Below are positions 17,405 through 29,548 of a DNA stretch of 64,000 nucleotides, piece by piece; within the stretch, counting starts at the first letter, position 1, and the number at the start of each line of letters is the position of its first letter. Position numbers and translations under genes: made by a program. Below the pieces are notes generated by a model. That model was not told the origin of the DNA and searched no databases. It was given only the letters and a program-made list of their open reading frames with translations. Origin of the DNA: Stigmatella ashevillena (GTDB taxonomy: Bacteria > Myxococcota > Myxococcia > Myxococcales > Myxococcaceae); contig NZ_JAQNDM010000002.1 in the NCBI RefSeq assembly GCF_028368975.1, forward strand, positions 248,001-312,000. Reading direction: 5' to 3'.

Positions 17405-19469
17405 ACTCCTGGGCGCCAACGACTTCCTGGGGACGGCTCCTCGGCCGTTCCACCAGAAGCCCTTGCACGGAGAGTTTGTCAAACGTGCAGGCGAGGTTGC
17501 GGCAGCCCAGGGCCACCTTGCCCACCCGGTCTTCCATCCCGGGGAGCATCTTGTAGGCAAAGCGCCGGTTGTTGACGAAGCCCTCCACCATCACGCCGTT
17601 TTTGCGCCGCTTCATCATCAGGCGCACGCGGAACGAGCCCAGGGCGGGAACGGGCATCTCATCGGCCGTGAGGTTCTCGAGATCCTGGGCGCTGTTGCCG
17701 ACGATCTCCTGGCCATCGTCCAAGAGGTAGCGCCAGGACAGGCGCATGCCCACCCCGGGGATGGCGAACGCGGACACCTGGAGATCCTTGGTGCGAAACG
17801 TCAGCTCGCCGAAGTGCTGGGCATCCGATTCGTCCGAGTATTCGGGGCCCAGGGGCATCACCGACATGTCGACCTCGGCGGTGAAGTCGTTGCTGGAGAA
17901 GTAGCGTTGCGCCACGTACGTACGGGGCCGGAAGCGGTTGCTGGTGCCCATGTCACTGCCGCCCTGGAGAACCTCCAGCTTCCCGTCCTTCATCTTCCAT
18001 TCGCCCGACCAGGCATTCAGCTCCTCCGGGCCCTCCACGAAATCCATCGAGAGGCGCGACAGGCCTCCGGGCAAGGCCAGCAGCTCCAGCTTGGAGGCGA
18101 CGTACAACTCGTGATCCGTATTGGCCGGCCACGGCTTGGTGTCCTGCTTCACCTGAATGCCGGACGTGCCAATGGTGAAGTCGCCCACGTGCAGGTTCAC
18201 CGGCCCGATGAATGCCCGCACCGCATAGGCCAGGAGCATGAGGCTGCCCACCACGGACGCGCCCGTGCGCACTTTCGACAAGCCCGCGCGCAGCTTGTGC
18301 AGCAGCGGATGGCCCCGCGCGGGGCGCGTGGTCCGCGCTTTGCGCGCGGACACGAGGGGACTCCCACCGGGGGGCACCGAGCCCGTGGTGGAGTCGATCA
18401 GCGGCTCCAGCTCGGCATTCACCTCGCCCGCGGTCGCGTAACGCTCCTCCGGCTCGTTCTCCAGCAGGCGCTCCACCACCGCGTCCACGCGGGGGTCCAG
18501 CTCCGGAATGCGCTCGGAGGGCAACCGGAAGCGCCCCACGGGCACCTCGCCGGTGAGCAGCTCGTAGAACATCACCCCCAGGGAGAACAGGTCCGCGCGC
18601 CGGTCCACGTTCTTCGCGTCCCGGCGCTGCTCGGGGGCCATGTAGTTGAGCGTCCCCATGGCCACCGAGGTCGCCGTGAGGTGTTGCTCCGAGCCGGGGC
18701 GCCGGATGCCGGCCAGGCCGAAGTCCGCCACCTTCACGTGCCCCCGCGCGTCCAGCAGGATGTTCTCGGGCTTCAGGTCGCGGTGGATGATGCCCTGGTC
18801 GTGCGCGTACTCGATGGCACTCGCCACCTGGCGGATGATGCGCAGGGTCTGCTGGAGGGGAAGCCGGCTCAGCCCCATCTCGTCCCGCAGGGAGTGGCCC
18901 TCCACGTACTCCATCACGAAGTAGTAGTGCTCTCCGGCCACGCCCCGGTCGAAGATCTGGATGATGTTCGGGTGGCTGAGCGTCGCGAGCGCCGTGGCTT
19001 CCTTCTCGAAGCGGGTGACGAACTCCGCGTCCTTGGCGAGCCGGGGGGGCAGGAGCTTCACCGCCACCGTGCGCTTGAGCGATTGCTGCCGGGCAAGCCA
19101 CACCTCGCCCATGCCACCCCGGCCAATCACCCGCAGCAGCTCGAAGCCCGGCAGGTCCACGGGGCCCTCGGAGGGCCCGGAGCCCGGGGGCTGCGAGCCC
19201 GACGCTTCCGGAGAGGCGCCGGGCTGGCTGCCTCGCAGCACCGTGGCCCCCACCATGTCGGCCTGCACGGCCTGGGCCTGGGACGCCACGCCCCGGCGGG
19301 AGGGGCCCACGGTGGTGTTGCCGCGCCCTTCGAGCTGGACGGCCGCGGAGGAGACGTCACCGCGGCGCACGTCGAAGCGGATGCCGCACTGGCACAGCAT
19401 GCGCTGGCCGCTCACATACACGCCGACGTCATGCGTCCGGCCACAGTTGGGACAAGGCTGGGCGGTCAT
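17403..19469 (-). CDS. Ser/Thr protein kinase with zinc ribbon and extracytoplasmic domain
   Basis: A 688-residue Hanks-type kinase. A zinc ribbon opens the protein (CPNCGR...CQCG), followed by a Ser/Gly/Pro linker, the kinase domain (about 95-355), one membrane helix (near SVVGSLMLLAYAVRAFIGPV, about 430) and an external C-terminal domain of about 250 residues that looks like a beta-sandwich (concanavalin/laminin-like) fold. Kinase motifs are complete: GRGGMGEVWLA loop, VAVKLLPP Lys, HRDLKPENIL catalytic loop, DFG and APE. It would phosphorylate Ser/Thr targets, with the external domain as the likely sensor. The ATG at 19467-19469 overlaps the cyclase stop by 4 bases, so kinase and FHA-cyclase are made together. 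An FHA domain binds phosphothreonine, which makes the cyclase an obvious candidate partner. Confidence 0.92.
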   Translation of the reverse strand: MTAQPCPNCGRTHDVGVYVSGQRMLCQCGIRFDVRRGDVSSAAVQLEGRGNTTVGPSRRGVASQAQAVQADMVGATVLRGSQPGASPEASGSQPPGSGPSEGPVDLPGFELLRVIGRGGMGEVWLARQQSLKRTVAVKLLPPRLAKDAEFVTRFEKEATALATLSHPNIIQIFDRGVAGEHYYFVMEYVEGHSLRDEMGLSRLPLQQTLRIIRQVASAIEYAHDQGIIHRDLKPENILLDARGHVKVADFGLAGIRRPGSEQHLTATSVAMGTLNYMAPEQRRDAKNVDRRADLFSLGVMFYELLTGEVPVGRFRLPSERIPELDPRVDAVVERLLENEPEERYATAGEVNAELEPLIDSTTGSVPPGGSPLVSARKARTTRPARGHPLLHKLRAGLSKVRTGASVVGSLMLLAYAVRAFIGPVNLHVGDFTIGTSGIQVKQDTKPWPANTDHELYVASKLELLALPGGLSRLSMDFVEGPEELNAWSGEWKMKDGKLEVLQGGSDMGTSNRFRPRTYVAQRYFSSNDFTAEVDMSVMPLGPEYSDESDAQHFGELTFRTKDLQVSAFAIPGVGMRLSWRYLLDDGQEIVGNSAQDLENLTADEMPVPALGSFRVRLMMKRRKNGVMVEGFVNNRRFAYKMLPGMEDRVGKVALGCRNLACTFDKLSVQGLLVERPRSRPQEVVGAQE

Positions 19470-21109
19470 GTGTCGCGGACGACCGTGCGCTCGGAGCCCG
19501 TGACCCGGAACGTCTGGACTCCCTTCTCCTTGCCCTTGACCTGCGCGACGGGCAGCGACTCCGCGAGGAAGCCCTGGCCGGCCTTCTTCACCGTGGTCTC
19601 CGTGGCGAGCACCTCTCCGCCCTTGGCCAGGCCACACAGCCGTGAGGCCGTGTTGACGGTGTCGCCGATGGCGGTGAACTCGTGGCGCTCCAGGCTTCCC
19701 ATGTAGCCCACGACGGCCTGGCCGGTGTTCACGCCGATGCCCACCGCGATGGGCTGGCGGCCCTTGGCCTTGCGCTGCTCGTTCAGGTCGTCCATCGCGT
19801 CCTGCATCTCCAGCGCGGCCTGGAGCGCGCGCGCGGGATCATCCGGATGAGACAAGGGAGGCCCCCAGACCGCCATCACACAGTCGCCAATGAACTTGTC
19901 CAGGTTGCCCTCGTGGCGGAACACCACGTTGGCCATGGCGGTGAAGAACTCGTTGAGCATCTCCACCACTTCCTGCGGCGAGTCATTCTCCGCCAGGGTG
20001 GTGAAGCCCCGGATGTCGGCGAACAGGCAGGACACCTCGGCGAGCCGGCTCTGGCCCAGGCCCTCCGTTTCACCTTTGATCACCGCGTCCGCCACCGCCT
20101 TGGACAGGAAGCGGCTGAGCTCGGCGCGGGTGACGGCCTCGGTGCGGATCTGCTCGGCCAGCGCCGCGTTCTCCAGCGCGATGCCCGCCTGGGCGGCGAT
20201 GCCCGAGAGGATCGTCAGATCGTTCTCGGAGAAGGCGTTGATGCGCTGGCGGCTGTCCAGGAAGAGCACCGCCTTGACGGTGCCGTTGATGGTGAGCGGC
20301 ACCGCCATGGCGGAGCGGATGCCCTGGGCGACGATGCTCTCGGCCGCCGAGAAGCGCTCGTCGATGATGGCATCCGCCGTCAGCACCGCCTTGCCCGTCT
20401 CCACCACCCGGCGCAGCACCGTGTCGGACACCATCACGTTCATCACCTTGCCCTGCCGGTGGTGGACGGTCACCGCGGTGAACTCGCCGCCCGCGCTGGG
20501 GGTGAGGATGACACCGTTGTCCGCGGGCAAAAGCTGGAAGGCCACGCGGATGATCTGATCGAACAGCTCCTGCTGGGTGCCGGCCAGGCTCACCTGGCGG
20601 TGGAACTCGTGGGCGATGCGCAGCTTCTCGTAGTCCCGGCGCAGCGCCTCCATGTCGCCCAGCTCATCGGCGGGGCGGAAGTTCTGCGGCCCCTGGTCCA
20701 TCTGCGCCAGGAAGGCCGGAATGGAGCGCGGGTTGGCCACGACGGTGACGCCCGCGGGCGCGGAGGGGATCGACGGCGCGTCGCCCCCGTGGAAGGTGAA
20801 CTTGGAGCCGCCCAGGGTGATTTCGTCCCCGTCCTTCAGCCGCATCTCCTTCACCCGGCGCCCGTTCACGAAGGTGCCGTTGGAGGAGTCCAGATCGCGG
20901 ACGATGAAGTCACGGCCGTTCTGCTCGATGACGGCGTGCTCCTTGGAGACCTCGCGGTCCACCAGGCGCAGGGTGTTGGCCGGGTGCCGGCCCAGCGTCG
21001 TCTTGGGCCCGAGCGGGAACTCCCCGAGCGTGCCGTCGGCGAACATGCCGGACAGGCGCGGCCCCTTCAGGGACCGGGGCGGAGCAAGAGAAGGAGAAGC
21101 TTGGGTCAC
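19466..21109 (-). CDS. FHA-GAF-class III adenylate/guanylate cyclase
   Basis: A 547-residue cytoplasmic signalling enzyme with an FHA domain (about 25-105; GRHPANTLRLVD, SKEHAVIE, DLDSSNGTFVNG), a GAF domain (about 170-320) and a class III nucleotidyl cyclase domain (about 350-530). Metal-binding aspartates appear in CLFADIRGFT and FIGDCVMAVWGPP, and dimer-partner residues in GIGVNTGQAVVGYMGS, so it should be active. Whether ATP or GTP is used is not settled by eye. Start is the GTG at 21107-21109; an in-frame ATG 63 bases later would truncate the start of FHA. Its stop overlaps the kinase start (ATGA), suggesting that kinase phosphorylation is read through the FHA domain to set cyclic-nucleotide output (inference). 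Confidence 0.92.
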   Translation of the reverse strand: MTQASPSLAPPRSLKGPRLSGMFADGTLGEFPLGPKTTLGRHPANTLRLVDREVSKEHAVIEQNGRDFIVRDLDSSNGTFVNGRRVKEMRLKDGDEITLGGSKFTFHGGDAPSIPSAPAGVTVVANPRSIPAFLAQMDQGPQNFRPADELGDMEALRRDYEKLRIAHEFHRQVSLAGTQQELFDQIIRVAFQLLPADNGVILTPSAGGEFTAVTVHHRQGKVMNVMVSDTVLRRVVETGKAVLTADAIIDERFSAAESIVAQGIRSAMAVPLTINGTVKAVLFLDSRQRINAFSENDLTILSGIAAQAGIALENAALAEQIRTEAVTRAELSRFLSKAVADAVIKGETEGLGQSRLAEVSCLFADIRGFTTLAENDSPQEVVEMLNEFFTAMANVVFRHEGNLDKFIGDCVMAVWGPPLSHPDDPARALQAALEMQDAMDDLNEQRKAKGRQPIAVGIGVNTGQAVVGYMGSLERHEFTAIGDTVNTASRLCGLAKGGEVLATETTVKKAGQGFLAESLPVAQVKGKEKGVQTFRVTGSERTVVRDT

Positions 21110-21313
21110 TCGGCAGACCTCACCGGGAGGACCTTACCAGAGCCCCTCAGGCGGGGGGAACGGCTGGCGCAGGGCCCTGGGCACCCTTCCCTGCGAAAGC
21201 CTGCACGGCCGAGCAGCCGCCGGGCCCCTGGCCCGGAATTTCGGGTTTCCCTGGCGCTTGCGCCGGGACGGAAACCTTTCATTCCGTGCGCTCGCGCTGC
21301 TAAGGGAGCCTGC

Positions 21314-22831
21314 GTGCGAATCAAGCAAAGGCCTGAGGACTTCTCCGTCAAGGAGTCCTATCGCTTCGACGAAGTTCCCGGCGCTCTTTTCCGCGTCTAC
21401 CTGATGGACAAGCAGAAGCTGTCCACCTTCGAGGCGGTGGACCGCATCCGCGATGCCTTTGGGCTCAAACCAGGTGCCATCAGCTTCTGCGGCCTGAAGG
21501 ACAAGCAGGGGCGCACCGAGCAGATCATCGCCGTGCAGGGCTCGGATGTGGACGTGCAGGAGGCGAACCTGCGCCTGAAGTACCTGGGGCGCACGGACAA
21601 GCCGCTGTCGGCCGCGAACATCACCTCCAACCGCTTCGCCGTCACCGTGCGCTCGCTGGACGAGTCCGTGCTGGGGCCTCTCAACGGGGCCGCGGCGGAG
21701 GTGAACCGGCTGGGGGTGGTGAACTACTTCGATAGCCAGCGCTTCGGCTCGCTCAAGCACGGCCAGGGCTTCATCGCCAAGGATCTCATCCGCGGGGACT
21801 TCGAAGCCGCCCTGCGCAACTACTTCGCCAAGCCCTCGGAGCTGGACCGGACCGAGGACGCCAAGGTGAAGCAGTTCTGGAGGGAGAACTGGGGCCGGTG
21901 GGATGCGCGCGTGCCCTTCGAGGGCTCGAAGAAGTACCACCGCATCCTCCGCTCGCTGCGCGACCACCCGGGCGACTACGTGCGGGCCTTCCTGCAGATC
22001 GACGCGGACTACCGCGCGATGCTGCTGTTCACCTACCAGAGCTATCTGTGGAACGAGGGGGTGCGGCGCTACCTCCAGCTCCTGATGCCCCGCGAGCACC
22101 TCTTTCCCCTGCGCTACCAGGCCGGCACGCTGCTGTTCCACCGGGATGCGAGCCCCGAGGCGCTGCGCACCCTGCGGGACGCGACTTTTCCGCTGCTCGG
22201 GCCGGACTCCACCTTCAAGAACGCCCAGGTGGAAGAGGCCGTCCAGTGGGTCCTGGGCCGGGAGAAGCTCGCGCTGAAGGACTTGCGGATCGAGGAGTCG
22301 CCGCGGCTGCTCTTCTTCAAGAGCGAGGAGCGCCCCGTGCTCGTCTTCCCGCACAAGCTGGTGCTGGGCCGCCCGCAGCGGGACGAACTCAACCGGGGCT
22401 CCATCAAGAGCAACGTCGCCTTCACCCTGCCCCCGGGCGCCTACGCCACCCTCGTCGTCAAGCGCCTCTTCCACTTCTCTTGGCGCGAGGACAGCCCGGC
22501 GGACATCCGCGCCTCCCAGCGCCCCCGGCTCACCGAAGTCGAACAGGCCGAAGCGCCTCGGGCCCCCGAGCCTCGCGCGCGCCCTTCCTTCGAGCGAGCC
22601 GCTCCCGGACGAGCCGCTCCCGGACGAGTCGCTCCCGGGCGCTCCGCTCCCGAGCGCTCCCGGGCTCCCGGGCGTGCTGCGTCCTTCCGGCCGGCCGAGC
22701 CCCCTCCCCCTGAGTCCCCATCGCCTCCCCCCCCGGGCTATCGGGAGACGCAGCGCATCAAGAAGGAAGCCAAACAGCGGGCACAGGCGGAGACGGCCGC
22801 AAAGTCCTCGAAATCAAAGAAGAAAAAGTAA
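21314..22831 (+). CDS. truD: tRNA pseudouridine synthase TruD with basic tail
   Basis: Isomerises U13 of certain tRNAs to pseudouridine. The GTG at 21314 follows AAGGGAG by 7 bases and begins VRIKQRPEDFSVKE, the usual TruD N-terminus. The catalytic Asp63 is in FCGLKDKQGRT, and later motifs NYFDSQRFGS and TYQSYLWNEG are present. At 505 residues it is longer than E. coli TruD (about 350). The extra roughly 100 residues are low-complexity: Arg/Ala/Pro repeats (APGR units, 22600-22680), a Pro stretch, then a Lys-rich end KSSKSKKKK. This tail resembles RNA-binding extensions and is probably lineage-specific. It is divergent from the cyclase gene, with 204 bases between them that show only weak GC-rich hairpins. 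Confidence 0.94.
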   Translation: MRIKQRPEDFSVKESYRFDEVPGALFRVYLMDKQKLSTFEAVDRIRDAFGLKPGAISFCGLKDKQGRTEQIIAVQGSDVDVQEANLRLKYLGRTDKPLSAANITSNRFAVTVRSLDESVLGPLNGAAAEVNRLGVVNYFDSQRFGSLKHGQGFIAKDLIRGDFEAALRNYFAKPSELDRTEDAKVKQFWRENWGRWDARVPFEGSKKYHRILRSLRDHPGDYVRAFLQIDADYRAMLLFTYQSYLWNEGVRRYLQLLMPREHLFPLRYQAGTLLFHRDASPEALRTLRDATFPLLGPDSTFKNAQVEEAVQWVLGREKLALKDLRIEESPRLLFFKSEERPVLVFPHKLVLGRPQRDELNRGSIKSNVAFTLPPGAYATLVVKRLFHFSWREDSPADIRASQRPRLTEVEQAEAPRAPEPRARPSFERAAPGRAAPGRVAPGRSAPERSRAPGRAASFRPAEPPPPESPSPPPPGYRETQRIKKEAKQRAQAETAAKSSKSKKKK

Positions 22832-22874
22832 CGCCAGGCAGGGGTGCAATGGGGTTCTCCGTACCTCGTAAAAC

Positions 22875-22896
22875 AGAGCGTGACCGCTCACGCTCT
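22875..22896. terminator. 9-bp hairpin between truD and the ECF sigma gene
   Basis: AGAGCGTGA (22875-22883) and TCACGCTCT (22888-22896) pair perfectly around CCGC. It lies 44 bases after the truD stop and 17 before the preferred sigma-factor ATG. There is no T-run, so it could be a truD terminator, a roadblock or an operator for the sigma operon. Its presence argues against the sigma gene starting upstream at 22844. Confidence 0.4.
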
Positions 22897-22912
22897 CAGC
22901 CCCTTCGGCGAC

Positions 22913-23503
22913 ATGCCCTTGGCCATCGGTTCTCTGATGGCTGAGGAAGCCCCCACGCTCCCCTGGAAGGCGGACGTGCAGGCTGCCCGCCGGGGGGATC
23001 CCAACGCCTTCGAGGCCCTGGTGCGCAGCGTCCAGCGCGCCGTGTACGGCCTGTCGCTGCGCTTGCTCAACAACGAGGCCGAGGCGGCCGAGGTGGCACA
23101 GGAGGCCTTCCTGCGCGCCTACCAGAATCTGCACCGCTACGATGACGCGCGCCCCTTCGATCTGTGGGTGATGGCCATCACGCGCAACCTCTGCCTGGAT
23201 CTGCTCCGGCGGCGCACCAAGGTGCGCACCGAGGAGATCGACTCCATGAAGGAGCTGCTTCCCAGCGGGGAGGCCTCCCTGGAGGAAGGCGCCATCGCGC
23301 GCCAGGAGCGCCAGTCGCTCGAGGAAGCCATGGCCACCCTGTCCGTGGAGGATCGGGAGGTGCTCGCGCTCTACTACGTCCAGAAGCGCACCACGAAGGA
23401 GATTGCCCAGATTCTGGGTTGTGCTCCCGGTACGATCATGGCCCGCCTGTTCCGGGCGCGGGAGAAGCTGCGCAAGCGGATGCCCACGGAGGAGCCCACA
23501 TGA
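22913..23503 (+). CDS. ECF-type RNA polymerase sigma factor
   Basis: A 196-residue extracytoplasmic-function sigma factor. Region 2 (about 35-105; AEVAQEAFLRAYQNLHRYD, then FDLWVMAITRNLCLDLLRRR) binds core and the -10 element. Region 4 (about 130-190; VLALYYVQKRTTKEIAQILG, then MARLFRAREKLRKRM) is the -35-reading helix-turn-helix. The start is uncertain: ATG 22913 is used here, ATG 22937 (MAEEAPTLPWKAD) is equally plausible, and ATG 22844 would place a strong hairpin inside the gene. The stop overlaps the anti-sigma start as ATGA. It resembles the M. xanthus RpoE1-like group from memory, but I cannot confirm orthology. Confidence 0.9.
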   Translation: MPLAIGSLMAEEAPTLPWKADVQAARRGDPNAFEALVRSVQRAVYGLSLRLLNNEAEAAEVAQEAFLRAYQNLHRYDDARPFDLWVMAITRNLCLDLLRRRTKVRTEEIDSMKELLPSGEASLEEGAIARQERQSLEEAMATLSVEDREVLALYYVQKRTTKEIAQILGCAPGTIMARLFRAREKLRKRMPTEEPT

Positions 23504-24003
23504 CTCCCACCCAGTGCCCCGAGCTGGAGGTGCTGTTCACCGAGCTGGAGGTGGGCGAGGGCCCGGCGCTCGAACACGCCGCCGCCTGCCCCCTGTGCAG
23601 CGCCATCCTGGAAGAGCATCGCCAGTTGGAGAAGGACCTGTACCGGCTGGCCGATCCCCTGCCACCCCCCGCCCTGGTCGCCACCGTGATGGCCCGGGTG
23701 GCCGTGGAGCCCCCTCCTCTGCGGCGGGAGCTCTGGGCCGGGGTGAGCATCCTGGCCGTTTCGCTCTTCACGGGGCTGGGGTTGCTGATCTCCAACGATC
23801 GGGCCCTGTCGCACCTGGGCCTCGCCCTGGCCTCCCTGGTCTCGGATGGAAAGTCGCTCGCCTTGGATCTTGCCAACGGTGGAAGCGCGCTTTGGAACAT
23901 CGCGGCGGGCCCCATCACCGCCATCCTCCTGTCGATGCTTTTCGTTTGCCTGTTCGGGCTCAAGCGGCTCGCGGGTTCCCCTCCTCCCTTGACCGAAGCG
24001 TGA
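23500..24003 (+). CDS. zinc-binding anti-sigma factor, membrane anchored
   Basis: A 167-residue protein with the ZAS motif HAAACPLC (HxxxCxxC, about residues 28-35), which in family members binds zinc and clamps the cognate ECF sigma factor. Two hydrophobic helices follow (SILAVSLFTGLGLLI, about 85-100, and AILLSMLFVCLFGL, about 145-158), so it would hold the sigma factor at the inner membrane. The 4-base start-stop overlap with the sigma gene supports partnership. The envelope protein encoded 8 bases downstream may supply or receive the signal. Confidence 0.85.
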   Translation: MTPTQCPELEVLFTELEVGEGPALEHAAACPLCSAILEEHRQLEKDLYRLADPLPPPALVATVMARVAVEPPPLRRELWAGVSILAVSLFTGLGLLISNDRALSHLGLALASLVSDGKSLALDLANGGSALWNIAAGPITAILLSMLFVCLFGLKRLAGSPPPLTEA

Positions 24004-24011
24004 GTGCGCCC

Positions 24012-25463
24012 ATGAAGATCGCTTCCCATCTGCTGCTCCCCTCCCTGTTGCTCGGCTCCCCCGCAGCGCTTGCCGCGCAGACGCCCTCTCCCCCTCCGGT
24101 CCAGGCGGCCGCCTCCAAGCCCATCGACGTGAGCTTTCGCGGCACGCTCCGCGATGCGCTCAAGCAGATCGCCGAGGAGGGCGGGCTCAACGTGGTCGCC
24201 ACGGGCGAGCTGGACACGGCCGTCGAGGTCCACCTCCGGGGCATCACCGCCGAGCAGGCTTTGCGGACCATCGCGCGGACTTACTCGCTGCGCCTGCTCC
24301 AGGATGGCTCCATCTATACGCTGCGGCCTATGAACAGCGCGGAGAAGCAGGCCGCCGAAGAGGACACCGGCGAGAGCCCGCCTGACTCCGCTCCGGTCCC
24401 CGTGGCGCCCCTCGCTCCCCCCGCTCCCCCCGTCGCGGCCGCACCGCCGGTCCCTCCCGAGCCCCTGATCGAGGAGCAGACACCTCCAGAGGTCCACAGG
24501 CGGATCCGCGACGAGATGCGGAAGGCGCAGCGCCGCACCAAGGGCGAGCACGACGTGGTGGCGCGCGGCCAGTCCATCGAAATCAAGAAGGGCGAGAGCG
24601 TGGACAACGCCGTCGTCTACGGCGGCAACATGGTGGTGCGCGGGCACGTCGACGAGGACGCGGTTGTCTTCGGTGGCAACCTGGACGTCTTCGGTACGGT
24701 GGACGGGGACGTTCACGCCTTCGGAGGCAATGTCACCCTGCACCCGGGCGCGAACGTGGGCGGAGATGCCTCGGCCATTGGGGGCTCGGTCATCCAGAAC
24801 GATGGCGCCCACGTGGAGGGCGGCACCGAGTCTCTGGAGGGCAAGAGCATCGGCAGCATGGTGCTGGGAGAGGTCAAGGACAGCCTCGAGAAGGAGTTCA
24901 CGAACTCCCGGAATGAAAAGAACGCGCAGAAGGACGAGGACGAGGACGCGCATGAAGACTCGCGGGGAGCCTTCCCGGGGTTCATCCTCAAGTTCGCCGC
25001 GCTCTTCGGGCTCGGCTTCCTGGGACAGCTCCTCTTTCCCACGCGCATGAAGGAGCTGTCGGCGGAGATCAAAGCCCAGCCGGTCAACAGTGGGCTGACG
25101 GGACTGCTGGGCACCGTGGCCCTCATCCCCATCTCCGTGATTCTGGCCATCACCCTGGTGGGGATTCCGGTGCTGGTGCTGCTGTGGCTCGTCGTTCCCC
25201 TGGCCGCGGCCCTGGGTCTGGCAGCCGTGGCGAGCGAGATCGGCATGCGGTTGCCCGTGCTGCGTGGACGGAAGACGCAGGCGGCCGTGCTGGCCCTGGG
25301 GTTGCTCGTCCTGTTGGGACTTGGGTCCATCCCGGTCCTGGGCTGGGTGGTGATGGGCGCGGCGTACCTCGTGGCCTTTGGCGCGGTCATCCGGACCCGG
25401 TTTGGCAGCAGGTCCCGGGGCATGCCCGAGCCCTTCACCCCCCACTCCACCAACTCCTATTAA
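24012..25463 (+). CDS. STN-domain and bactofilin-like polytopic envelope protein
   Basis: A 483-residue exported protein in an unusual domain order. A signal peptide (to about ALAAQ) is followed by a secretin/TonB short N-terminal (STN) domain (about 33-100; FRGTLRDALKQIAEEGGLNVV, ITAEQALRTIARTYSLRLL), a Pro/Ala linker, a short right-handed beta-helix of bactofilin type (about 195-270; repeated VVYGGNMVVRGHV, VVFGGNLDVFGTV, AFGGNVTLHPGANV), a charged Glu/Asp linker and about four C-terminal membrane helices. STN domains serve as signal-exchange modules in outer-membrane gates such as FecA. Here it is the third gene of a sigma/anti-sigma operon, 8 bases after the anti-sigma stop, and may be its envelope sensor or main target. 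Function not established. Confidence 0.75.
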   Translation: MKIASHLLLPSLLLGSPAALAAQTPSPPPVQAAASKPIDVSFRGTLRDALKQIAEEGGLNVVATGELDTAVEVHLRGITAEQALRTIARTYSLRLLQDGSIYTLRPMNSAEKQAAEEDTGESPPDSAPVPVAPLAPPAPPVAAAPPVPPEPLIEEQTPPEVHRRIRDEMRKAQRRTKGEHDVVARGQSIEIKKGESVDNAVVYGGNMVVRGHVDEDAVVFGGNLDVFGTVDGDVHAFGGNVTLHPGANVGGDASAIGGSVIQNDGAHVEGGTESLEGKSIGSMVLGEVKDSLEKEFTNSRNEKNAQKDEDEDAHEDSRGAFPGFILKFAALFGLGFLGQLLFPTRMKELSAEIKAQPVNSGLTGLLGTVALIPISVILAITLVGIPVLVLLWLVVPLAAALGLAAVASEIGMRLPVLRGRKTQAAVLALGLLVLLGLGSIPVLGWVVMGAAYLVAFGAVIRTRFGSRSRGMPEPFTPHSTNSY

Positions 25464-25527
25464 GTCCAGGCCGCTGGTGCGGCGGGTGGAAGATAACGCG
25501 ATGCAGTAGGAGATATCGTGCAGGACG

Positions 25528-25551
25528 GGCCGAAGCTTTCCCTCGGCCTTT
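25528..25551 (+). terminator. candidate terminator of the sigma operon
   Basis: GGCCGA (25528-25533) and TCGGCC (25543-25548) form a 6-bp GC-rich stem with a 9-base loop followed by TTT. It is 65 bases past the stop of the STN/bactofilin-like gene and 38 before the next ATG. The short T-run makes it weak. The rest of 25464-25589 shows no clear promoter for the next operon. Confidence 0.4.
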
Positions 25552-25589
25552 GACCGCTGGGGGCAGTTGGGCCAAGTTGCGCGGCATCC

Positions 25590-26948
25590 ATGCGACGCCT
25601 CCCTGATGCCTCCCCTCGCGGCAAGGCCATCACCGTGGACCTCGAGGGCGAAACCATCCCCGCCATCGAGGGCGAACCGGTGGCTTGTTCCCTCATCGCC
25701 GCGGGCGAGTCCATGCTTGCCCGCTCCATCAAGTACCACCGCCCCCGCGGGGCCTACTGCTTCGCCTCCGCGTGCTCCCACTGCCTGATGCGTGTGGATG
25801 GCCAGCCCAACATCTATACGTGCCGGACTCCCGCCCGCGAAGGCATGAAGCTGGAGCGCCAGAACGCGTTCCCCTCCACCAAGGTGGATGTCTTCGCCAC
25901 CATCGATTGGTTCTTCCCCGGCGGGTTGGACCACCACGAGATGTTCGCGGGCGTCCCCGTCGCCGAGCAGGTGATGGCCAAGGTCGCCCGGCAGCTCGCG
26001 GGACTGGGCCTGCTGCCAGATCGCGAGGCCCCTCCCCGTCCCCCCGCGCGCACGGTCCGCACGCGCGTGGCGGTGGTGGGTGGCGGCGCGGCGGGGCTCG
26101 CGGCGGCCCGCGTGCTGGCCAGCCAGGCCATTCCCTTCCTCCTCGTGGAGCGCGAGGCGCGCCTGGGCGGACGGCTTCTTCGGGGCGCACCGTTGGCGGA
26201 TGACCCGCCTGCCTCGGAGGCCTCCTCCTTTCCCAAGGGCAGCGTGCTGACCCGGGCCCACGCGGTAGGCCTCTTTAATGATGAGGAGGGGTATTTCCTG
26301 GTGGTGGCGTCTCTGGAGCCCGAGGGGCCGCAGCTCTCCAAGGTGTACGCCGAGCGTTTCCTGCTCACCCCCGGCGGTCATCCGTCCTGTCTTCCCTTCG
26401 AGAACAATGAGCTGCCCGGCGTGTACGCGGGGCGCGCCGCCAGCCAGTTGCTGCGCGAGCACGGGGTGGCTCCCGAGCGGGCGGCGCTGGTGGGTTGGGG
26501 CGCGGAGCTGTACGCCCTGGCGCGGCTGCTCGAGTCGAATGGCACTCAGGTGGCCGCGCTGGTGGACCTCCGGGGCCCTGTGCCCGCGGGTGCCCCGGCC
26601 GTGGCGTGCGTGGGCGCCGAACCCAAGGCGCATGGCCTCCGGAAAGTGGGCGCCTTCAGCTTCGCCCGCGGCGGTGGACGGCGGGAGAAGGTGAACTGCG
26701 ACGCGGTGCTCGTCTCGATTCCCACCAGCCCCAGCTTCGAGCTGGCGCGGCAAGGTGGCGCGCACGTGCGGTTCGACACGGAGCGAGACCTCTTCGTGGT
26801 GGAGGCGGACGCGGACGGGCGGACGGCGGCCCCGCAGGTGTTCGTGGCGGGAGACATTACCGGCGGAGGCAGCGCCCAGGAGGCGGCCGCCTCAGGGGTC
26901 CGGGCCGCGGAGTCCCTCGTGAAGTCTCTTGGAGGAGGACCGTCATGA
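25590..26948 (+). CDS. 2Fe-2S/pyridine-nucleotide-disulfide-type dehydrogenase subunit (HcnA-HcnB-like fusion)
   Basis: A 452-residue flavoprotein that joins two modules usually split or arranged differently. Residues about 10-100 form a Fer2_4 plant-type [2Fe-2S] domain (SIKYHRPRGAYCF, Cys in CFASACSHCLMRVDG and YTCRTP). Residues about 150-450 form a FAD/NAD(P)-binding fold (VAVVGGGAAGLAAARVL, closing VFVAGDITGGG). Such subunits occur in sarcosine oxidase alpha, cyanide synthase HcnAB, opine oxidase and D-hydroxyproline dehydrogenase. The [2Fe-2S] BFD domain normally carried at the HcnB C-terminus is missing here and sits on the partner. No glycine-cleavage-T domain is present, so it is not a full sarcosine oxidase alpha. 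The stop overlaps the partner start by ATGA. Substrate unknown; an amino or imino acid is expected. Confidence 0.82.
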   Translation: MRRLPDASPRGKAITVDLEGETIPAIEGEPVACSLIAAGESMLARSIKYHRPRGAYCFASACSHCLMRVDGQPNIYTCRTPAREGMKLERQNAFPSTKVDVFATIDWFFPGGLDHHEMFAGVPVAEQVMAKVARQLAGLGLLPDREAPPRPPARTVRTRVAVVGGGAAGLAAARVLASQAIPFLLVEREARLGGRLLRGAPLADDPPASEASSFPKGSVLTRAHAVGLFNDEEGYFLVVASLEPEGPQLSKVYAERFLLTPGGHPSCLPFENNELPGVYAGRAASQLLREHGVAPERAALVGWGAELYALARLLESNGTQVAALVDLRGPVPAGAPAVACVGAEPKAHGLRKVGAFSFARGGGRREKVNCDAVLVSIPTSPSFELARQGGAHVRFDTERDLFVVEADADGRTAAPQVFVAGDITGGGSAQEAAASGVRAAESLVKSLGGGPS

Positions 26949-28432
26949 GCAAGGCGATCATCTGCTCTTGTGAGGATGTCACCGCCGACGATGTCCGGCA
27001 TGCGCTGGCCAAGGGCTACCACGATGTCGAGTCGGTCAAGCGGTACACCGGCTTTGGCACGGGGATCTGCCAGGGGAAGAGCTGCCTGTCCGCCGTGGCG
27101 GCCCTGGTCGCCAAGGAAGGGCCCCTGAAGTCCCCGGGCATCCTCCCCTTCACGCCCCGGCCTCCGCTCTACCCCACCGAGCTGTCCCTCTTCGCCAGCA
27201 TGCCGGTGGAGGAGTCCCAGCCCCCCGTGGGCGGCGTCCCCCAGGAATTGGGCGTCTTTCCTCAGGCGCTGCGGCCCACCACCGAGCTGCCGCAGAAGGC
27301 CAAGGTGGTCATCATCGGCGGGGGGGTGATGGGGCTGGCGCTCGCCTACAACCTCAGCCTGCGGGGCGAGAAGGACGTGGTGGTGTTGGAGCGGGGCTAC
27401 CTCTGCGCGGGCGCCTCGGGCCGCAATGGCGGCGGGGTGCGCATGCAGTGGGGCACCGCCTCCAACATCGAGCTGGCCAAGCGGTCCATAGATCTGATGA
27501 AGCAGTTCGCGCGCGATCTGGGCATCAACGTCTGGTTGCGCCAGGGCGGCTACCTCTTCCTCACCCGCACCGAGGCGGTGGCCAAGCGGCTGGAGCGCAA
27601 TGTCGCGCTCCACAACAAGCACGGAGTGCCCACCCGGATCATCACCGCGGGCGCGGCCCGGGAGATCGTCCCCGGGCTGACGCTCAAGGGCGTCATCAGC
27701 GCCTCGTACAATCCCGAGGATGGGGTCATGTTCCCCTGGGCCTTTCTCTGGGGCTATGCGCAGCACTGCCTGAAGAAGGGCATCCGGGTCGAGACCTACA
27801 CGAATGTGACGGGCTTCGACATTTCGGAAGGCCAGATCCGCAAGGTGAAGACGGACCGGGGCGACATTGCCTGTGAGCAGGTGGTGCTGGCGGCGGGGGC
27901 CTGGAGCCCTGAGATCGCCCAGTTGGCGGGAGTGAAGCTGCCCAACGAGCCCCACCGCCACGAGATCCTCAGCACCGAGCCGCTCAAGCCCTTCCTGGGG
28001 CCGCTGGTGTCGGTGTTGGACTCGGGCCTCTATTTCAGCCAGTCCATGCGGGGGGAGATCGTCGGTGGCATGGGGGATCCCCACGAGCCCGCCGGGCTCA
28101 ACATGGGCTCCACCCTGCGCTTCACCGCGCGCTTCTCCCAGGCGCTGACGGAGCAGTTGCCCCAGGTGGGCCACGTGAAGGTCCTTCGCCAGTGGGCCGG
28201 CTGCTACGACGTGACGCCGGACAACAACCCCGTGTTGGGAAGAACGCCGGGGTTGGACAACCTCCTTCAGATGTCCGGCTTCGTGGGCCATGGCTTCATG
28301 ATGGCGCCGGCCGTCGCCGAGCGGATGGCGGCCTGGATGGTCACGGACGAGGACGATGAACTCTTCCAGCGCTTCAACCTGCGCCGCTTCAGCTCGGGCC
28401 GGTTGGAGCGCGAGGACATGATCATCGGCTGA
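26945..28432 (+). CDS. BFD-fused FAD-dependent amine/amino-acid dehydrogenase subunit
   Basis: A 495-residue catalytic partner of the preceding protein. Residues about 3-60 are a BFD-like [2Fe-2S] domain (CSCEDVT, then GTGICQGKSC, giving the C-x-C and C-x4-C ligands). After a linker, residues about 120-480 are a DAO-family FAD oxidoreductase (KVVIIGGGVMGLALAYNL; closing WAGCYDVTPDNNPVLG and GFVGHGFMMAPAVAE), close in form to sarcosine oxidase beta and HcnC. It would oxidise a secondary amine or amino acid on FAD and pass electrons through both iron-sulfur domains. Having BFD on the DAO subunit is an uncommon arrangement. ATG at 26945 overlaps the upstream stop, and the 3' end overlaps the convergent SDR gene by 11 bases. 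Confidence 0.85.
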   Translation: MSKAIICSCEDVTADDVRHALAKGYHDVESVKRYTGFGTGICQGKSCLSAVAALVAKEGPLKSPGILPFTPRPPLYPTELSLFASMPVEESQPPVGGVPQELGVFPQALRPTTELPQKAKVVIIGGGVMGLALAYNLSLRGEKDVVVLERGYLCAGASGRNGGGVRMQWGTASNIELAKRSIDLMKQFARDLGINVWLRQGGYLFLTRTEAVAKRLERNVALHNKHGVPTRIITAGAAREIVPGLTLKGVISASYNPEDGVMFPWAFLWGYAQHCLKKGIRVETYTNVTGFDISEGQIRKVKTDRGDIACEQVVLAAGAWSPEIAQLAGVKLPNEPHRHEILSTEPLKPFLGPLVSVLDSGLYFSQSMRGEIVGGMGDPHEPAGLNMGSTLRFTARFSQALTEQLPQVGHVKVLRQWAGCYDVTPDNNPVLGRTPGLDNLLQMSGFVGHGFMMAPAVAERMAAWMVTDEDDELFQRFNLRRFSSGRLEREDMIIG

Positions 28433-29315
28433 GTCCAGGGGCCCCGGGAGACGGCGTTCCCGGGGGCAGCAGGGACGGCATGGCCCCTGCCAGCCGGGGG
28501 TTGCCCTCCTCGGAGCCCTCCCGGGCCCGGCGCCCCGCGGCGAACCGTCCCAAAGCCCTGCGGAAGGCCCGGGGAAGCATAGGCATCAACCCCATCACCC
28601 GGCGGTGTCCCGCGCCTGGGTACACGAGGGGTTCGGCCCGCTCGAAGCCCGCGAGGATCTCTCGGGCGCATTGCGTGGCGGAGATGCGGAAGAAGGGGGC
28701 GGGTTCCTCGGGAGCGCCGGGGTGTTCAGCCCAGGGATTTCGCACGGGGCCAGGGGCCGCGTAGGTCATGACGACGCCCGAGCCCTCCACCTCCAGCCGC
28801 AAGGACTCGAAGAATCCATCCATGCACCGGTGGGCCGCCGAGGCGGCCGCGAAGCCGGGAAGGAACAGCTGGGAGGAGCCCGAGCCCACGTGGAGGATGC
28901 CACCGCTCTTCCGGGCGACCATGGACGGCAGGAGCCGGTGCGTGAGCAGCAGCGGGGCCACGATGTTGGCCTGGAGCGTCCGCTCGATGTCCTCCCAGGA
29001 CTGCTGGGTGAAGGGATCCTGGGCCCCCACCCCTCCCGCACTCACCAGGATGCCGGGGGTGATGAGGTGATTGGCCAGCTCCTCCATGATCCGGTCCACC
29101 TCGTTGGGCAGCGAGAGGTCCGCGCACAGGAGCACCACGCCCAAGGTGGGATTCCGGACCTGAAGCTCCTCCGACAGCGCGTCCAGCCGCTCCGCGTGAG
29201 GGCACACCAGCACCAGCGTCCTGGCTCGGTGGGAGAGCTGGCGGGCAAGCTCCCGGCCCAGAACCGAGCAGGCTCCCGTGATGAGAATGGATCCAAAGTC
29301 GATGGGGGGACGCAT
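28422..29315 (-). CDS. SDR-fold protein lacking the catalytic Tyr-Lys pair
   Basis: A 297-residue short-chain dehydrogenase/reductase-like protein. The nucleotide loop is ILITGACSVLGRELARQL and the mid-fold motif is SAGG in place of NNAG. Where active SDRs have YxxxK, this protein reads AAASAAHRC: Tyr is replaced by Ala and Lys by His, although the preceding Ser-rich strand (HVGSGSSQ) is kept. It probably binds NAD(P) without classical oxidoreductase chemistry, or uses other residues. The start is the ATG at 29313-29315, because GGAGGTG lies 5 bases before it; an ATG at 29325-29327 has no such site. The C-terminal 40 residues are Arg/Pro-rich and unlike the family. Convergent 11-base overlap with the amine dehydrogenase gene. 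Confidence 0.82.
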   Translation of the reverse strand: MRPPIDFGSILITGACSVLGRELARQLSHRARTLVLVCPHAERLDALSEELQVRNPTLGVVLLCADLSLPNEVDRIMEELANHLITPGILVSAGGVGAQDPFTQQSWEDIERTLQANIVAPLLLTHRLLPSMVARKSGGILHVGSGSSQLFLPGFAAASAAHRCMDGFFESLRLEVEGSGVVMTYAAPGPVRNPWAEHPGAPEEPAPFFRISATQCAREILAGFERAEPLVYPGAGHRRVMGLMPMLPRAFRRALGRFAAGRRAREGSEEGNPRLAGAMPSLLPPGTPSPGAPGLSR

Positions 29316-29548
29316 CCACACCTCCATTAAGAAAAGGGCTCGTCCGGCGCACGGACCCAAAGGGGGACGCGCAAAGCTAAGCCGACCCCTCCGGCCTCGC
29401 ACGGCCCTTCCCCCTGTGCTCACCAGGCAAGCGCCCGAGGGCTCCTGGTCTTGAAGTGTCGCGGCTCCGACACGTCTCGGACACGCAGTGCAGGGGGCTG
29501 TGAGCTTTCCGTGAAGCTGCGCACCTTATCCGGGAGGAGGAAAAGCAC

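Follow-up and report, generated by a model that had tools for sequence, protein, structure and literature searches.

An ECF sigma operon with an STN- and bactofilin-like membrane protein and its predicted phage-shock-like regulon in myxobacteria

The operon and its three products

The stretch of DNA analysed here, called the window, comprises 64,000 nucleotides of Stigmatella ashevillena (positions 248,001 to 312,000 of contig NZ_JAQNDM010000002.1; the genome is 10.95 Mb in two contigs) and carries, at 22846–25463, an operon together with a promoter-like box, GCAAT-N16/17-CGTA. The operon consists of three plus-strand genes, which encode in order an extracytoplasmic function (ECF) sigma factor, an anti-sigma factor and a third protein that joins an STN domain, a bactofilin-like β-helix and membrane helices (Table 1). 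The anti-sigma gene starts within the end of the sigma gene, with an overlap of four bases that includes the sigma stop codon, and the third gene starts 8 bases past the anti-sigma stop. On balance, we think that this operon is probably the autoregulated ECF control unit of a phage-shock-like (PSP, phage-shock protein) membrane-stress response in myxobacteria. The computational analysis supports the anatomy of the operon, the conservation of the box and the set of genes that lie behind it.

Table 1. Features of the operon and its surroundings, in window coordinates
Feature	Position	Strand	Basis or remarks
Predicted ECF promoter, GCAAT-N16-CGTA	22846–22870	+	−35 at 22846–22850, −10 at 22867–22870; alignment and genome scan
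ECF sigma factor, 207 aa	22880–23503	+	Pfam and NCBIfam matches, start conservation
Anti-sigma factor, 167 aa	23500–24003	+	Translation, family alignment, weak RsiW structural match
Third gene: predicted inner-membrane protein, 483 aa	24012–25463	+	Translation, Pfam, AlphaFold model, structure comparison
Signal peptide, residues 1–22	24012–24077	+	Inspection of the sequence
STN domain, secretin N0 type by sequence, residues 36–108	24117–24335	+	PDB profile search and model
Bactofilin-like β-helix, residues 181–275	24552–24836	+	Model and structure match
Membrane-helix domain, residues 317–465	24960–25406	+	Model; five long helices and one short
FHA-GAF-nucleotidyl cyclase gene	19466–21109	−	Pfam of flanking ORFs; beside truD
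Two oxidoreductase ORFs directly behind the operon	25590–28432		2Fe-2S, FAD and sarcosine-oxidase-like domains

The sigma factor is a clear ECF protein, with regions 2 and 4 present (Pfam Sigma70_r2, E = 6e-18; r4_2, E = 1.6e-15). Its best NCBIfam match is SigW (E = 2.5e-34, 118.7 bits), below the SigW cut-off of 209. An earlier note on this DNA, made from the sequence alone, had started the gene at ATG 22913; GTG 22880 is the more likely start, because this GTG and the AACGCTCT-like sequence directly after it are kept in relatives. The start then lies 9 bases past the −10 box, and the message may therefore be almost leaderless.

The anti-sigma factor has the arrangement typical of the zinc-type (ZAS/RsiW-like) class, H-x3-C-x2-C beside a membrane part, here two hydrophobic stretches (by inspection) with a short stretch between them and a short C-terminus. 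It has no Pfam match at all, and its match to the NCBIfam anti-sigma model NF052375 (E = 3.2e-5, 24 bits) falls below the cut-off of 100. The only solved chain that aligned with its structural model (per-residue confidence, pLDDT, 72; predicted template-modelling score, pTM, 0.32) was RsiW 5wuq_D, at a weak Z of 3.9. Neither the Pfam search nor the family alignment revealed a large FecR-type periplasmic domain. Among relatives, the anti-sigmas of loci L061, L066, L067 and L068 lack H-x3-C-x2-C and keep an EEHRQLEKDL-like stretch; three of these four genomes have PspA, without the box upstream.

For the third protein, an AlphaFold model built from 24 aligned family members has a mean pLDDT of 77 and a pTM of 0.37, and therefore does not place the STN, β-helix and membrane domains relative to each other. 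Within it, the STN domain is confident (elements at 38–106, blocks 41–110 at pLDDT 90–94), the proline-rich linker that follows is poorly predicted, and the β-helix is again confident, with block means of 86–96 up to residue 270. The signal peptide and the basic loops, judged by inspection, suggest that the N-terminus with STN and β-helix lies outside and the C-terminus inside. The domain order proposed in the earlier note, STN, bactofilin-like helix and membrane helices, is thus upheld by profiles, model and structure matches, as is its description of an ECF sigma/anti-sigma operon with a third gene by the Pfam and NCBIfam matches and the gene layout.

That note had named two outcomes that would speak against it, a middle region that is not a β-helix and an STN call without significance; neither was obtained. 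In the window's protein the STN match is below the Pfam cut-off (PF07660, 19.6 versus 28.4 bits, E = 7.9e-4); 19 of 33 family members reach E ≤ 0.01 (best 6.4e-20), and the family profile matches the PilQ N0 domain 4ar0 with E = 3e-11, or 2.4e-14 with STN alone. A PDB search with the STN profile gave 13 matches up to E = 10, of which eight are PilQ/HofQ secretins, all at E ≤ 1.2e-6, and the other five are unrelated transposases and carbonic anhydrase; no TonB receptor and no FecR chain appeared up to that threshold. In structure comparison, the STN domains of secretins, FecR-like proteins and TonB receptors tie at Z 9.3–10.6, so that the fold alone leaves the type undecided; by its sequence profile, the domain belongs with those of secretins (PilQ N0). 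Weak matches to this region in the same genome are a 172-residue secretin-N-terminus-like protein (E = 9.3e-5) and PilQ (E = 5.8e-4), which itself carries STN (Pfam E = 6.9e-11). The genome encodes a stand-alone secretin-N-terminus-like protein with STN and Secretin_N and no secretin channel (L063:6096–6695, minus strand; G000:C2 near 5690239, G000 being the window's genome).

These results bear on the suggestion, made in the earlier note, of FecA/FecR-type surface signalling in which the STN stands in for the signalling domain of the receptor. The shared fold, with tied Z values for the STN domains of secretins, FpvA, FoxA and PupR, would be in keeping with it. The PilQ-type sequence argues against it, however, as do the lack of a FecR part in the anti-sigma, a predicted regulon of membrane-stress type (below), the absence of STN from all 19 other-phylum relatives scanned, and the absence of a TonB receptor from the five flanking open reading frames (ORFs; 19466–29423: the cyclase, TruD, two oxidoreductases and a short-chain dehydrogenase). 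We regard surface signalling of this kind as very improbable.

The middle region is predicted to be a β-helix. Its match to the Pfam Bactofilin model is below cut-off in the window's protein (PF04519, E = 0.22, 12.3 versus 27.9 bits), while E ≤ 0.01 is reached by 7 of 33 myxococcal and 10 of 19 other-phylum members (best 2.3e-8). Its best structural match is a Thermus bactofilin, 6ria (Z 12.1, root-mean-square deviation 1.6 Å over 82 residues), followed by BacA, 2n3d (Z 10.6, 2.7 Å over 91 residues), and a bactofilin-type fold is thus present in the modelled protein. Both structures are of polymerising bactofilins, and the likeness raises the idea that the helix forms bactofilin-like filaments in the periplasm and reports their state to the anti-sigma. 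We consider this reading improbable, given that the helix is joined to a membrane domain and is probably periplasmic, and that the Pfam match is below cut-off. One relative, L056:5696–8026, has by reading several STN-like units ahead of the β-helix; one alignment member has a PEGA domain and is, by reading, this same protein.

The promoter box and the genes behind it

The box stands just ahead of the conserved GTG in all 12 aligned upstream regions, chosen among 28 sigma loci; in the coordinates of the genome scan it lies at G000:C2:270846–270870, and its place ahead of the sigma operon presumably makes it autoregulatory. In four genomes the third gene is present twice, the second time on a different contig and with neither a sigma nor an anti-sigma gene (sensor-only copies). 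The box is found upstream of all four, and in three it is followed by a stretch with clear resemblance to the beginning of the sigma gene. These copies look as if the operon had been duplicated and the sigma and anti-sigma genes had then been lost, with the promoter left in place. A loose form of the box occurs at 46 of 71 sigma loci, a count in which some genomes are entered under two locus identifiers and some hits are off-distance and possibly chance; outside the window's family, most loci lack it.

Another ECF factor could read the box, with the operon merely one of its targets, and the window's genome does hold 19 further matches to the sigma protein (best paralog bit score 88). The box is present, however, both at the operon and at copies that seem to derive from it, and ECF operons are commonly autoregulated; we thus hold it improbable that a different factor is the reader.

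Genome scans returned more box sites than a reversed-pattern control: 36 versus 10 in the window's genome, 29 versus 7 and 25 versus 7 in the close genomes G001 and G002, and 37 versus 5 in Myxococcus xanthus AM003. Of the 36 sites in the window's genome, 12 lie ahead of genes whose G001 orthologues also have the box, and 11 do so for G002, counting one 28% paralog; spacer identity at these shared sites goes as low as 29% (PspA). Among control sites this holds for 1 of 10 with each genome, with spacers identical or at 94%. Downstream ORFs were kept in this comparison at a third-position GC of at least 0.8; without the filter, L132 and L148 are also matched in G001, apparently through wrong-frame ORFs. 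In M. xanthus, 13 of 37 sites are shared by similarity, ten of them orthologue-like (44–88% identity) and three paralogs (26–30%).

The genes behind the box include PspA_IM30 (Pfam E = 3.9e-18), PspC (E = 3e-14), SPFH (Band_7_1) with SHOCT, Yip1, DUF1232, DUF2807 and a MacB_PCD/FtsX permease. Nine targets have the box in common in all four scanned genomes: the sigma operon itself, a second secreted β-helix protein, Yip1, PspA, a 99-residue protein, PspC, DUF1232, DUF2807 and a 72-residue protein. Of the four genomes, just the window's and G001 have the exact box at the SPFH gene, and these two and M. xanthus have it at the orthologous permease. The second β-helix protein matches the β-helix of the third protein (E = 4.6e-9, 36% identity) and gives no match to the Pfam Bactofilin model. 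There is no Pfam match for the 99-residue protein or for a 484-residue protein behind the box, and the 72-residue protein has Pfam matches below cut-off only; the 99-residue protein resembles PspB by eye and matches no NCBIfam PspB model. Three M. xanthus sites outside those shared with the window's genome (L277, L291 and L300) precede, by eye, a peptidase-like lipoprotein, a PerM-like transporter and a small YeaQ-like membrane protein.

PspA was also located through its own Pfam family, in 29 of 39 genomes, 21 of them in the window's family; not counted is a weak second match in G012 (L251), which does not reach the cut-off. In 15 of these 21, the 300 bases ahead of PspA contain the box, compared with an average of 0.0135 when the same regions are shuffled in two-base units; the 21 genomes are related and not independent, and their spacers differ. 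We predict PspA and PspC to be outputs of the operon.

Several points weigh against this interpretation. First of all, for 24 of the 36 sites in the window's genome there is no matching site ahead of a G001 orthologue, and many of these 24 may be chance. Second, two more control sites are alike in the window's genome and G001, with no qualifying ORF behind them, so that the control figure of 1 of 10 may be too low. Third, 6 of the 21 family genomes lack the box ahead of PspA, as do all eight PspA loci located outside the family. Furthermore, the genomes are related, and the counts are therefore not independent. Finally, it is solely the positions of the box at the operon and its copies that would link this particular sigma to it.

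Distribution of the module

The third protein has a match in 34 of the 39 related genomes, a count that includes the window's own. Gene order was read in 28 of the 33 others (all but G009, G010, G011, G015 and G018), in 35 larger loci, of which L062–L064 are other genes of the window's genome and are excluded from the 32 counted here. Of the 32, 27 have a sigma gene next to the third gene and 25 an anti-sigma recognisable by similarity to the window's, which supports the tie between the third protein and an ECF sigma/anti-sigma pair that the earlier note had supposed. By reading, L057 and L058 lack STN, and L049, L052, L053 and L056 have more than one.

A wider scan with the single third protein as query returned no loci; with the family alignment it returned 63, of which 39 (L069–L107) are myxococcal by title or similarity. 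One record, L072, titled Comamonas sp. KCTC 72670, holds a typical myxobacterial operon with the box and is probably mislabelled. The other 24 loci (L108–L131) are, by their titles, from Chloroflexota and classes within it, Acidobacteria, Gemmatimonadetes, Eremiobacterota, Latescibacterota, CSSED10-310, one cyanobacterium, one proteobacterium and a few further Myxococcota. Because the scan relied on a single short β-helix pattern, the 63 loci are a sample and not a census.

Among these 24, 17 have a same-strand sigma gene upstream (two at 1.4 and 1.8 kb; L114 offers only 322 bases of upstream sequence), and in 12 of the 17 an ORF with H-x3-C-x2-C lies between sigma and third gene. STN was found in none of 19 relatives scanned, 13 of which have the upstream sigma gene; L109, L110, L123, L127 and L129, four of them with no start found, make up the rest of the 24. 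Since sigma is upstream in 17 of 24 and STN was found in none of the 19, what recurs more widely seems to be a unit of sigma, anti-sigma and β-helix/membrane protein, to which STN was added in myxobacteria. Eleven target proteins compared with these module loci (4–14 kb) at E = 1e-4 gave β-helix matches only, which is a weak negative for PSP genes beside the module because the searched loci are short.

The module sigmas of other phyla score 49–111 bits against the window's sigma, no closer than its best own-genome paralog (88). In a tree of 55 sequences, all 37 module sigmas (20 hand-picked myxococcal, 17 from other phyla) lie apart from the 18 own-genome paralogs; because the separating branch has a support of 0.274, we do not claim a clade of module sigmas.

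A proposed mechanism

In the resting cell, the sigma factor would be held at the inner membrane by the anti-sigma. Stress at the inner membrane would release it, the direction of control being the one we infer, and the freed sigma would recognise GCAAT-N16/17-CGTA and transcribe its own operon together with a scattered regulon of PspA, PspC, SPFH-SHOCT, Yip1, DUF2807, DUF1232 and MacB-type permease proteins, two small membrane proteins (one of them the PspB-like one) and the second secreted β-helix protein. The third protein, anchored in the inner membrane so that STN and β-helix lie in the periplasm, would most likely act as membrane partner of the anti-sigma, sensing stress and feeding back on the switch, and would also accumulate as a component of the response. 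We propose an ECF switch over a PSP-like regulon because the target set looks PSP-type and because B. subtilis provides a known case of PspA under ECF control. The envelope role suggested in the earlier note gains indirect support from this predicted regulon.

The third protein could be a sensor, a feedback partner or an effector. Sensing or feedback with the anti-sigma is the most likely, because the third gene is tied to the sigma/anti-sigma pair across phyla. A role in the output is suggested as well, because the sensor-only copies and the second β-helix protein carry the box, and sensing/feedback and output may both hold. The protein might instead be an effector alone, a target of the sigma that braces the inner membrane or periplasm without sensing; this would suit the box at all four sensor-only copies and at the second β-helix protein in every scanned genome. 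The recurrent place of the third gene beside sigma and anti-sigma across phyla, where the eleven targets gave only β-helix matches, speaks against it, and we consider a pure effector somewhat unlikely.

A bolder extension of the sensing role concerns the STN itself. N0 takes part, along with adjacent domains, in the packing of secretin rings, and the presence of a PilQ-type N0 in a membrane protein that would control PSP suggests direct N0 recognition: the domain would serve as bait for mislocalised or misassembled secretins, binding multimers stuck in the inner membrane and switching on the PSP regulon. In Yersinia, mislocalised secretins trigger the Psp response, and PspB and PspC bind secretin multimers (PMC5596341); PSP thus needs no such partner everywhere. 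We rate the bait as unlikely. According to the same paper, no mechanism by which PSP recognises secretins had been described before that study, and a secretin-type domain in a protein that controls PSP would be relevant to this recognition. If true, the bait would give the PSP system a built-in way to recognise secretins, gained in myxobacteria by the addition of STN to a sigma/anti-sigma/β-helix module that lacks this domain in other phyla.

What is new here is a predicted promoter box, regulon and sensor for an odd operon, most of which are present in the model organism M. xanthus. In searches of the open-licence literature, we found no link between an ECF factor and phage shock (PspA) for M. 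xanthus or myxobacteria.

Comparison with known systems

Among the closest known systems is SigW/RsiW of Bacillus subtilis with pspA-ydjGHI, which likewise pairs an ECF sigma with a zinc-type membrane anti-sigma and has PspA and an SPFH protein among its outputs. SigW drives the B. subtilis genes for both. The likeness extends to the best NCBIfam match of the window's sigma (SigW, below cut-off) and to the weak RsiW alignment of the anti-sigma model (Z 3.9). The SigW promoter box, on the other hand, differs from GCAAT-N16/17-CGTA, and SigW/RsiW is not known to have an STN/β-helix partner gene. In B. subtilis the SPFH protein YdjI is needed to recruit PspA to the membrane (PMC8581546).

The enterobacterial Psp system (PspF/A/B/C) shares PspA and PspC, which are predicted outputs here. 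Its genes are driven by sigma-54 with PspF (PMC3068692), unlike the myxobacterial system, where an ECF sigma is the predicted driver. A survey of PSP systems (PMC11237479) proposes PSP-like membrane-stress operons around Toastrack, a domain of β-helical repeats, with an operonic sigma factor in one context; Toastrack is argued there to be intracellular, unlike the β-helix predicted here, and the terms bactofilin, STN, ECF and Myxococc are absent from the main text of that survey.

The PupR/FecR anti-sigmas combine a periplasmic β-solenoid-like part with STN (PMC7186176), and the STN of the third protein matches the chain 6ovk_R at Z 9.8. There, however, both parts lie within the anti-sigma, with STN last, whereas here they form a separate protein with STN first, and its β part matches bactofilin instead. 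Bactofilins (PF04519) share the β-helix fold, at Z 12.1 for the Thermus protein and 10.6 for BacA; the third protein, unlike them, is predicted to be exported and membrane-anchored, and it falls below the Pfam cut-off. Finally, the N0 domain of the type IV pilus secretin PilQ is the nearest sequence type of its STN, although the third protein, unlike PilQ, has no secretin channel and is predicted to reside in the inner membrane.

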